Assembly (NCBI RefSeq): GCF_000585395.1 | Contig: NZ_KK073875.1 | Coordinates: forward strand, 571,186 to 635,185 | DNA: 64,000 nt | Direction of reading: 5' to 3' | DNA from: Saccharibacillus sacchari DSM 19268 | Lineage (GTDB): Bacteria > Bacillota > Bacilli > Paenibacillales > Paenibacillaceae | In this document: in pieces, positions 7,310 to 60,889 of the stretch | How positions within the stretch are numbered: the stretch's first letter is position 1 | Layout of the letters: each line of letters begins with the position of its first letter | Position numbers and translations under genes: made by a program | The notes under the pieces: generated by a model | Database searches by the model: none | The model's input: the letters and a program-made list of their open reading frames with translations, nothing else | What the model was told of the DNA's origin: nothing

Positions 7310-8263
7310 TTAGATGCCTGCGCCGTAGTCGCTGAATTCGGCTTCTTTGGATTGGTCGACCTGGTCGAAAGGCGTTTCTTGGTAGACGTAATAGTTCAGC
7401 CAGTTGGAGAACAAGAGATTGGCATGGGCTCTCCATGAAGACAACGGTTTTTGGGTCGGGTCATCACCCGGGAAATAATGTTTGGGAACGGCGACGTCAA
7501 GGCCTTTGGCGATGTCACGGTCATATTCCCATTTAAGCGAGAACGGGTCGTATTCGGAATGGCCGGTGGCGAAGATTTGTTTGCCGTCTTTGGTTGCGAC
7601 GAGGTACACGCCGGCTTCTTCGGATTCGGCCAGGATTTCCAGTTCTTCGCTGCGCAGGATGTCTTCGCGCTGCACGTCGGTATGACGGGAGTGCGGGACA
7701 TCGAAAGATTCGTCGAATCCGCGCAGGAGCTGTACATTGGTTTTGTTCATGGTATGCGAGAATACTCCAAAACATTTTTCAGCCAAAGGAATTTTGCTTA
7801 CGCCGAAATGATGGTACAACCCCGCTTGCGAGGCCCAACAGATGTGCATCGTCGACGTGACGTTCTTTTTCGTCCAATTGAAAATCTGTTGAATCTCTTC
7901 CCAGTAGCTGACTTCTTCGAATTCAAGCTGTTCGACCGGTGCGCCGGTAATGATCATTCCGTCGAAACGCAGATGCTTGATCTCATCGAATGTTTTGTAA
8001 AACGTGTTCAGGTATTCTTCCGACGTATTTTTGGATGTGTGCGAGCTCGGGTAGAGTAGTGCAACGTCGACTTGCAACGGGGTGTTGCCGATCAAACGCA
8101 GCAGCTGCGTCTCGGTTGTTTCTTTGGTCGGCATCAAGTTCAAAATCGCGATGCGCAGCGGACGGATATCCTGGCTATACGCTCGGCTCTCGTCCATGAC
8201 GAAGATATTCTCCTTCAATAGCACTTCCATAGCCGGCAAATTATCAGGCACTTTAATCGGCAT
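7310..8263 (-). CDS. metA: Homoserine O-acetyltransferase, MetA type
   Basis: A 317-residue member of the MetA (glutamine-amidotransferase-like fold) family, which activates homoserine for methionine synthesis. The nucleophile is C142 in [11 protein letters not shown], and H235 and E237 in GHSEYDPF complete the active site. Residue 111 in [10 protein letters not shown] is glutamate; in this family Glu111 marks acetyl-CoA use and Gly111 succinyl-CoA use, so I call it an acetyltransferase. It is preceded by AAAGGAGTG and by an exceptionally long SAM-riboswitch leader. A weak A/T-rich hairpin spans its stop codon (about 7290-7311), so transcription may continue into metI. Confidence 0.93.
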
Positions 8264-8371
8264 CTACCATTCACTCCTTTTTGTTTTTTGGACTTTATTG
8301 AACCTTGAATTTGGACGGCGATCTATCAGGCATTCGGCAGCCGAAGCACCTTTCGAAATGTACGAATGGGT

Positions 8372-8409
8372 ACAAAAAAGACCTTTTCCGGGCAAGCCGA
8401 GAAAGGTCT
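8372..8409 (-). terminator. Regulated terminator of the SAM-I riboswitch
   Basis: On the minus strand AGACCTTT pairs with AAAGGTCT around an inner CGG/CCG helix and is followed by six Ts. The alternative antiterminator is visible: GAGAGAGG (8431-8424), which includes the P1 3' strand, can pair with CCTTTCTC (8405-8398) of the terminator's 5' arm with one G-U. This is the usual S-box off switch, about 108 nt before the metA start. Confidence 0.85.
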
Positions 8410-8426
8410 ATAGAAAGCTAGCGCCT

Positions 8427-9132
8427 CTCTCATCTGTCAGTTACCATACGTTGCGAACAGAAAAGGCGTATTGCGCGAACGGAAGTAAGATTTCGTTCGG
8501 CTACGCGATTTCTCCAAAGATCGGTACGAGCGTCTAACGGCAAGTCGGGCATGGGCGCAACGTTTCTGTGACGGGAACTCCGATCGGCGCGTGATGACGC
8601 CGAACTCGGACTGCACAGGGATACACTTGTAAACGTTGACCTATACGACAGGCGTTGAACGGCTTGTGCCTCACCTTGGATCGCATGGTTGCTTCCGATG
8701 ACGAGAAGAATTGAGCTTTATTCGCAGAGTCGGACATGGGCGTTACGTTGTCGTGACGATAAATACTGTCGGCCCGCTGGTCGCTTGCCTCGGATCGCAC
8801 TCTGACAACCTTAATGACGCCCATGCGAATGACTCTTAACGGCTCGTGCCTCGTCTTGGATCGCATGGTTGCTTCCATAACGAGAAAGTTTGAGCGTTAT
8901 TCGTAGAGCCGGACATGGGCGGTACGTTGTCGTGACGATAAATGCTGTCGGCCCGCTGGTCGCTTGCCTCGGATCGCACTCTGACAACCTTAAATGACGC
9001 CCATGCGAATGACTCTTAACGACTCGTGCCTCGCCTTGGATCGCATGGTAACTGCAAGAATTAGCACCGTACGACGAAGTCGCCGGTTGCCGGGTTTCAT
9101 CGGGCTAGTCCCTCCACCTGCTCTTGATAAGA
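8427..9132 (-). promoter_or_regulatory. SAM-I (S-box) riboswitch with a giant P4 insertion
   Basis: The 5' half is a textbook S-box on the minus strand: TCTTATCAAGAG (9132-9121), GGTGGAGGGACTAGCCC, GATGAAACCCGGCAACC and CGGTGCTAATTCTTGCAG. P1 closes with GATGAGA (8434-8428). P4 is CAGTTACCATGCG (9054-9042) paired with CGTATGGTAACTG (8450-8438), 13 bp with one G-U. In ordinary S-boxes the P4 loop is short; here about 591 nt lie inside it, filled by 180-nt tandem repeats with their own hairpins. SAM binding uses P1, P3, the P1/P2 and P3/P4 joins and the kink-turn, all of which are present, so I expect function. It controls metA and probably metI-metC. Confidence 0.9.
8510..9049 (-). repeat. Three tandem 180-nt units inside the riboswitch P4 loop
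   Basis: On the minus strand each unit begins ACCATGCGATCCAAG; the starts are at 9049, 8869 and 8689, exactly 180 nt apart. Units 1 and 2 are nearly identical, with base changes and one compensating 1-nt indel pair; unit 3 keeps the head and parts of the tail (CGCCCATG.CCGACT) but is diverged between. Each of units 1 and 2 folds into a long hairpin: AGAGTC, CATGGGCG, GTTGTC and GTG-CGAT pair with ATCGTCAC, GACAAC, CGCCCATG and GGCTCT or GACTCT. Unit 3 has its own CAACGTTT/AAACGTTG pairing. The first unit's head is the P4 5' strand itself. Confidence 0.9.
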
Positions 9133-9215
9133 TTCCACTTTTCGACCGGCGCGCGAACGCCGGAGGAAGTATTCAATTGTTGGGTTCCAGCTTGCGCCGG
9201 AAGAACTTTAGATCA

Positions 9216-9243
9216 ATTATACACGAAAACAGTATTCAGGCAA
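9216..9243 (-). promoter_or_regulatory. Promoter for the metA leader
   Basis: Minus strand: TTGCCT (9243-9238), 16 nt, then TATAAT (9221-9216). The expected transcript start near 9209 is about 77 nt before the riboswitch P1 and gives a leader of roughly 945 nt. Only the -10 box is a perfect match. Confidence 0.6.
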
Positions 9244-9311
9244 GAAGCAGCTTATACAGGAATTAACCATTTTTTGCACACATTCGTGAATAAAAATACC
9301 GGAGTATGCAC

Positions 9312-9362
9312 AAAAAGCCCGTATGCTTGCACTTTCCAGCTTTTCCGTATAGCTGACGGGCT
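9312..9362 (-). terminator. Probable terminator after the 117-residue hypothetical gene
   Basis: Minus strand: AGCCCGT pairs with ACGGGCT around a 33-nt interior with weak internal pairing (AGCT), followed by five Ts. It sits about 120 nt after the stop of the gene at 9486-9839. Confidence 0.5.
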
Positions 9363-9485
9363 CTGTTATTTTTTCGACAAGCCATACGGAGTTCGCTTCA
9401 AGAAGTTTCAACGCTGTATCGTAATTGCCTATGCTCAGTTGGACGGTCTTAGAACTGTTTTCGAATTGATGTAGCTGTAAAAGAC

Positions 9486-60859: not shown

Positions 60860-60889
60860 GGCTGGGCTGGGCTGGGCTGGGCTGGGCTG
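60860..60889. repeat. GGCTG pentanucleotide repeat, six copies
   Basis: Six perfect tandem copies of GGCTG follow directly after the terminator T run. Such a tract is prone to slippage, but it lies outside any gene. Confidence 0.9.

Follow-up and report, generated by a model that had tools for sequence, protein, structure and literature searches.

A probable expansion segment of hairpin modules in the P4 arm of the metA SAM-I riboswitch of Saccharibacillus

In S-box (SAM-I) riboswitches, SAM stabilises helix P1, P1 sequesters the antiterminator strand, the terminator forms, and the gene is switched off. Long stem-loop "variable insertions" are described as a general feature of riboswitches by Barrick and Breaker (2007; PMC2258182). 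For bacterial and archaeal 5S rRNA, PMC7812874 describes expansion segments of 13-109 residues, whose extra helices seemingly do not interfere with folding of the core. Here we describe a metA leader from Saccharibacillus sacchari DSM 19268, located in a stretch of 64,000 nucleotides that was analysed as a whole and is called the window, to which all coordinates refer. The leader shares with the SAM-I family (RF00162) the core sequence, helices P1 to P4, the methionine-gene context, and the antiterminator/terminator platform, but differs by a P4 loop of 591 nt and an aptamer of about 706 nt. By every feature tested, the leader is a SAM-I riboswitch, and its sequence points to an extreme, modular form of variable insertion. 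The insert differs from the insertions described in PMC2258182 in that part of it is conserved and in being built of modules amplified in tandem, and it belongs to a length series within one genus. The nearest named analogue that we met is the expansion segments of 5S rRNA (PMC7812874), which likewise add helical segments to a conserved RNA, but do so in another RNA and within the size range given above. The preliminary description knew of no S-box of this kind. No such S-box was found in the literature searched; long variable insertions as such are, however, in print (PMC2258182). The literature matches listed contained neither a SAM-I arm of such size nor a Saccharibacillus riboswitch; few subscription papers were covered, which makes this weak evidence of absence. 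To our knowledge, what is new is the size of the arm, its construction from tandem modules, and the occurrence of a graded series within a single genus, the variable insertion as a kind being already known.

The riboswitch occupies positions 9132-8427 of the minus strand, on which all leader features given below are located, and precedes metA. A search with the RF00162 model, which had been recommended as a check of the SAM-I identity, returned a match at 9133-9028 with 54.6 bits, above the gathering score of 44.4, and thus confirmed that identity. The end of the match at 9028 is spurious, as the model uses insert sequence to close P1. The P1 5' strand (9132-9126) forms all seven base pairs with the P1 3' strand (8434-8428) in the unconstrained minimum free energy (MFE) structure of the aptamer. 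It is followed by the aptamer 5' half with J1/2, P2, P3, and J3/4 (9125-9055), as delimited by the RF00162 alignment. Helix P4 was found exactly as proposed: CAGTTACCATGCG (9054-9042) pairs with CGTATGGTAACTG (8450-8438) in 13 bp, including one G-U, and encloses the 591-nt insert (9041-8451), which comprises the modules and a 3' tail. A repeat finder reported the same helix as 18-nt arms, 83% complementary, with 591 nt between them. In the platform fold before the terminator 3' half, GAGAGAGG (8431-8424) and CCTTTCTC (8406-8399) form the antiterminator (8431-8399), and the predicted intrinsic terminator (8409-8374) consists of a hairpin at 8409-8379 and a U tract. Both antiterminator strands are invariant in all 16 metA leaders of the genus, as are the terminator 5' strand from GACC onward, the AGGT of its 3' strand, and four Ts. 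Sequence and folds therefore agree with the earlier statement that P1, antiterminator, and terminator are present. The terminator was absent from the consensus-scan list, probably because its stem carries an internal mismatch. A consensus scan of positions 8250-9450 yielded a single promoter-like site, TTGCCT-16-TATAAT (9243-9216), 5' of the aptamer, with 1.0 expected by chance, and no second promoter within the insert. The metA gene (8263-7310) encodes a homoserine O-acetyltransferase (PF04204, E 1.7e-142; NF047918, 500.9 bits with a cut-off of 460.5). Further downstream on the same strand are two genes for PLP enzymes of Cys/Met metabolism, at 7159-5969 (PF01053, E 1.5e-149) and 5967-4690 (PF01053, E 1.1e-143), whose best NCBIfam equivalogs, NF006095 and NF005976, respectively, remained below cut-off. 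The genome comprises 6.08 Mb in one contig and contains two further SAM-I matches.

The repetitive nature of the insert, also noted beforehand, is reflected in tandem repeats with a period of 179, 2.2 copies, and 92% matches. Using a pattern search, we detected 18 copies of a hairpin of about 50 nt, hairpin A, in nine of ten species with expanded arms (none in genome G005), and six copies of a related hairpin B in five species. A covariance model of hairpin A, termed R1, was built from the 18 pattern copies, with the B copies left out. In the window, R1 scored modules A1 (9050-8998), A2 (8870-8818), and A3 (8690-8638) with 69.0, 67.6, and 63.8 bits, respectively, all three being copies that had entered the model; the 5' part of A1 overlaps the P4 5' strand. 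Modules B1 (8983-8929; 17.0 bits, E 0.038) and B2 (8804-8750; 16.5 bits, E 0.051) were delimited by R1 and by the structure of the B alignment. A degenerate B-like hairpin, B3 (8620-8562, CUGUG...CACAG), was recognised by eye; it folds alone at -24.0 kcal/mol and is unmatched by R1 up to E 1. With B3 included, the order in the window arm is A-B-A-B-A-B-tail. Pattern-based orders are A-A-B-A plus the same tail region in G006, A-A-A-B in G012, A-A-A-A in G003, and A-B in both G008 and G014; the B copy of G008 is picked up by R1 at E 9.4e-6. Nine of 16 genus genomes gave R1 matches, all but one located in metA leaders, and a search of 148 family genomes with stricter filters gave matches in eight, which represent one of 19 genera. 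At 60860-60889, the window also holds six perfect copies of GGCTG.

A comparison of related metA leaders, likewise suggested in the preliminary description, revealed that the arm is not a one-off. Genomes were assigned to the genus by similarity, that is, by the nearest named MetA, and the nearest named MetA was that of S. deserti with 92% identity. In all 16 genus genomes, including that of the window, metA is preceded by a SAM-I leader. We took arm length as the P3-to-P1 spacer, from GGTGCTAATTC of J3/4 to GATGAG of P1. Six leaders have arms of 50-52 nt, and the other ten have arms of 75, 125, 127, 128, 239, 247, 260, 315, 499, and 623 nt, the last being that of the window. A metA tree with midpoint root separated the ten expanded from the six unexpanded species with a support of 100/100. 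Supported splits among the ten joined the window genome with G006 (97/96), G005 with G011 (100/100), and the latter two with G003 (100/99); the remaining splits lack resolution. The metA genes of G005 and G011 (loci L026 and L027) are 98.3% identical, yet the arms measure 75 and 128 nt; this difference is a recent gain or loss of one hairpin. Thus, copy number can change fast. Unexpanded arms in the genus exceed the "few nucleotides" that had been taken as the normal P4 loop. RF00162 gave 45 matches in the genus, from which 30 loci outside the ten were taken; 27 of them, three being metA leaders of unexpanded species, were measured by pattern at 25-53 nt, and the other three gave no pattern match.

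Outside this set, a pattern search recognised the two aptamer halves in the 400 nt upstream of the gene in 25 of 80 metA loci from public genomes. Among the 25, S. deserti has the same arm as G005, with 75 nt, and the arms of the other 24 measure 20-51 nt. Most of the remaining 55 loci are without the core motif near metA; four carry it over 1.5 kb upstream, where the spacers measure 21-26 nt. L118 and L123 contain the 5' half, and the P1 3' motif was not found in these two. In 35 genomes of 35 genera, RF00162 gave 102 matches with spans of 81-189 nt, where 189 nt is to be read with the ability of the model to shorten long arms. Four matches under 60 bits and two of long span were inspected in sequence, and the other 96 were judged by reported span. 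A wider RF00162 search of 91 genomes covered the best 150 matches, together with weaker ones from those genomes that were re-searched in the 35-genome survey. One of the four low-scoring matches, locus L155 (G150:C119, 112-292), from another genus of the same phylum, has a 92-nt spacer by eye that RF00162 missed, which indicates that moderately long P4 arms exist elsewhere. The length of the two long-span matches, L158 and L159, is due mainly to P3 insertions, with 72 and 88 nt in the P3 loop, making P3 another site of expansion. In L154 (G204:C1), tandem RF00162 matches at 181-269 and 344-448, about 75 nt apart, scored 53.7 and 94.4 bits. In the ten expanded leaders, the RF00162 match is 106-109 nt long and wrongly takes arm sequence for the P1 3' strand; the expansion is thereby hidden in database coordinates.

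Covariation was evaluated across the ten expanded species. In P4, 94.1% of the alignment cells are paired, compared with 20.5-47.7% for slid structures. Three of 14 pairs changed on both sides, a number reached by 15 of 500 shuffles; the six cells changed on both sides and the covariation score were each reached by none of the 500. Further pair types, reached by 500 of 500 shuffles, are not in excess. The compensatory changes comprise C-G to U-A in one species, G-C to A-U in two, and A-U to G-C in three. In the outer helix, one A-U pair is a mismatched A-C in G005 and G011, and another in G001 and G012. The structure of module A pairs 94.7% of the cells, versus 25.6-66.9% for slid structures, with seven cells changed on both sides (0/500 shuffles) and a covariation score that none of the 500 shuffles reached; covarying pairs are not in excess by number (267/500 as high). 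A change from A-U to G-C was found in five copies from two species (G003 and G011), and a second such pair lies in the inner stem. A rival fold of A (CCA/UGG, GACGA/UCGUC, GGC/GCC) pairs 85.1% of the cells, with a score reached by 1/500 shuffles; as, in addition, the alignment tested is the one from which the A structure had been obtained, the exact fold of A is uncertain. Module B, with five distinct rows, stayed within the shuffles for both cells paired (54/500) and score (60/500). The mean identity over the 45 species pairs was 98% for the aptamer 5' half, taken as the stretch from P1 to J3/4, and 91% for the platform, in agreement with the conserved switch that had been postulated.

The 781-nt leader folds with an MFE z-score of -5.5, and none of 20 shuffles was as low. 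The arms gave z-scores of -2.9 to -6.1 in all ten species, with at most one of 60 or 150 shuffles as low. When 16 nt were left out at either end, the values were -2.0 to -4.4, G003 being the weakest (6/150). The opposite strand of the arms folds about as well; this structure excess therefore cannot separate selection on the RNA from inverted repeats in the DNA. In unconstrained MFE structures of the aptamer through the P1 3' strand, P1 was complete (7/7) in nine of ten species, P2 (6/6) in eight, and P4 (6/6) in seven, with 5/6 in an eighth. The failures were G001, without P1, P2, and P4, and G011, without P2 and P4. When the terminator was included and no ligand considered, P1 was absent from the MFE structure in seven of ten species, among them that of the window, whose leader also lost P2. 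Ligand-free loss of P1 is expected of a switch, and of a weak one as well.

The native P4 probability was 0.95-1.0 in seven of ten species, and the means with shuffled inserts were 0.19-0.74. At most four of 20 or 40 shuffles were as good as the native insert in seven species, the exceptions being G003 (20/40), G011 (16/40), and G001 (8/40); this comparison favours the native arm because shuffling disrupted the inner extension of P4 as well. P1 was not clearly better than with shuffled inserts (7/40 to 33/40 as good). On the proposal in the preliminary description that the insert alters co-transcriptional folding, equilibrium folding of the half-made transcript gave a mixed picture. P2 probabilities were 0.00-0.41 in all ten species, in many cases no higher than with shuffled inserts, and the 5' half may well misfold while it waits for the P4 3' strand. 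Pairing between the insert and the 5' half of the aptamer was below most shuffles in G006 (0/20 as low), G000 (2/20), and G008 (4/40), and not low in G003 (31/40) and G001 (30/40). The predictions indicate that the arms tend to permit P4; a general insulation of the arm from the core was not borne out by them.

We consider it probable that the metA leader is a transcription-terminating SAM-I riboswitch whose peripheral P4 arm is an expansion segment grown by duplication of hairpin modules. This reading builds on the anatomy of the leader, the covariation of P4, the conservation of core and platform, the graded arm lengths, and a module that is confined to this locus as far as searched. It would entail a response to SAM, an origin of the arm by duplication, and near-neutral changes in its length, with the main constraint on the insert presumably being that it folds while leaving P4 and the core intact. 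A hairpin module of about 50 nt would have been added to the P4 hairpin in one group of Saccharibacillus species. Local tandem duplication, divergence into the A and B types, and loss would then have altered the copy number and produced arm lengths from 75 to 623 nt. During transcription, the arm would fold as a separate domain, after which the P4 3' strand would close P4. Upon SAM binding, P1 would form, the antiterminator would be blocked, and the terminator would halt transcription before metA.

A function of the modules themselves, with each A or B hairpin binding a protein, an RNA, or a ligand and the arm acting as a second input or a stability element, appears unlikely to us. It would account for the 16 invariant columns among the 57 of the hairpin A alignment (18 copies, nine species), seven of these letters being demanded by the selecting pattern. 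It would also account for the first 33 nt of the first module, whose mean identity over the 45 pairs is 0.76, compared with 0.56 at 4-fold sites of metA and 0.49, gaps counted against, in the terminator-to-SD spacer; these classes are not on one scale, and the comparison is not a formal test. The value of 0.76, being higher than that of the 4-fold sites, is contrary to the expectation of near-neutral drift; it holds within the genus and is compatible with non-conservation at larger distance. The conserved stretch, however, overlaps the P4 5' strand, so that part of the conservation may be that of P4 itself. Moreover, G005 is without A by pattern although its metA is nearly identical to that of G011, six congeners have ordinary arms, and R1 matches are restricted to a single genus among the 19 family genera searched. 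The insert also lacks a credible Rfam match, as besides SAM only eukaryotic families appeared, with E values of 1.7-5.8 in a search up to E 10. Slightly less probable again is that the A and B hairpins are a new conserved factor-binding RNA module and the leader a composite regulator, in which a SAM-I riboswitch carries an amplified array of sites on P4.

A use of the insert as a kinetic timer, in which the added transcription time tunes the sensitivity to SAM, seems improbable. Bacterial RNA polymerase transcribes some tens of nucleotides per second. At such rates, the 591 nt would keep the 5' half waiting for roughly 10-30 s longer, and the topology does require that closure of P1 awaits synthesis of the insert. 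In any SAM-I riboswitch, however, the P1 3' strand is made after P4 and the terminator after P1; the order of events would thus be unchanged and only a delay added. The arm length, moreover, varies 8-fold among the ten species and differs between close relatives (75 and 128 nt; 499 and 623 nt), which is not expected of a tuned delay.

We give very little weight to the view of a decaying riboswitch in which the insert represents debris. The RF00162 scores of the ten expanded leaders (51.0-60.9 bits) are indeed lower than those of the other 35 genus matches (66.1-84.1 bits), and two of the ten species failed to fold the full core by MFE. The low scores arise, at least in part, because the model closes P1 on arm sequence, and both the cross-species identity of core and platform and the compensatory changes in P4 argue against decay.

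That a mobile or foreign element has inserted into the P4 loop, as the large size and the repeats might suggest, has next to no probability, since the insert has no other copy in its own genome better than E 0.5 and no match in phage and plasmid collections, its 114-aa frame belongs to no protein family, and graded arms share the module in nine of ten species. An R1 match at G000:C1:5603108 (E 9.4e-4) was dismissed, as it lies within an open frame in a stretch of 85% GC. We also rejected a coding insert, since neither Pfam nor NCBIfam gave a match to the 114-aa frame (8534-8878), and, by eye, no sense frame is common to the ten arms among the top three of each; G013 and G005 have no sense frame of at least 40 aa, and G000, G006, and G012 share pieces of frames because they share repeats. 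An assembly artefact is unlikely, given the one-contig genome and the presence of the same modules in different number in G006. As no convincing copy of hairpin A was found outside metA leaders, local tandem duplication, and not a mobile element, is the likely and, judged from the sequences, the simplest origin of the arm.

If the expanded metA riboswitch works, a SAM-I aptamer tolerates an interruption of about 600 nt while staying under selection. With a near-identical core and platform and arms from 50 to 623 nt, the Saccharibacillus leaders would provide a natural series for the effects of delay on co-transcriptional ligand sensing.
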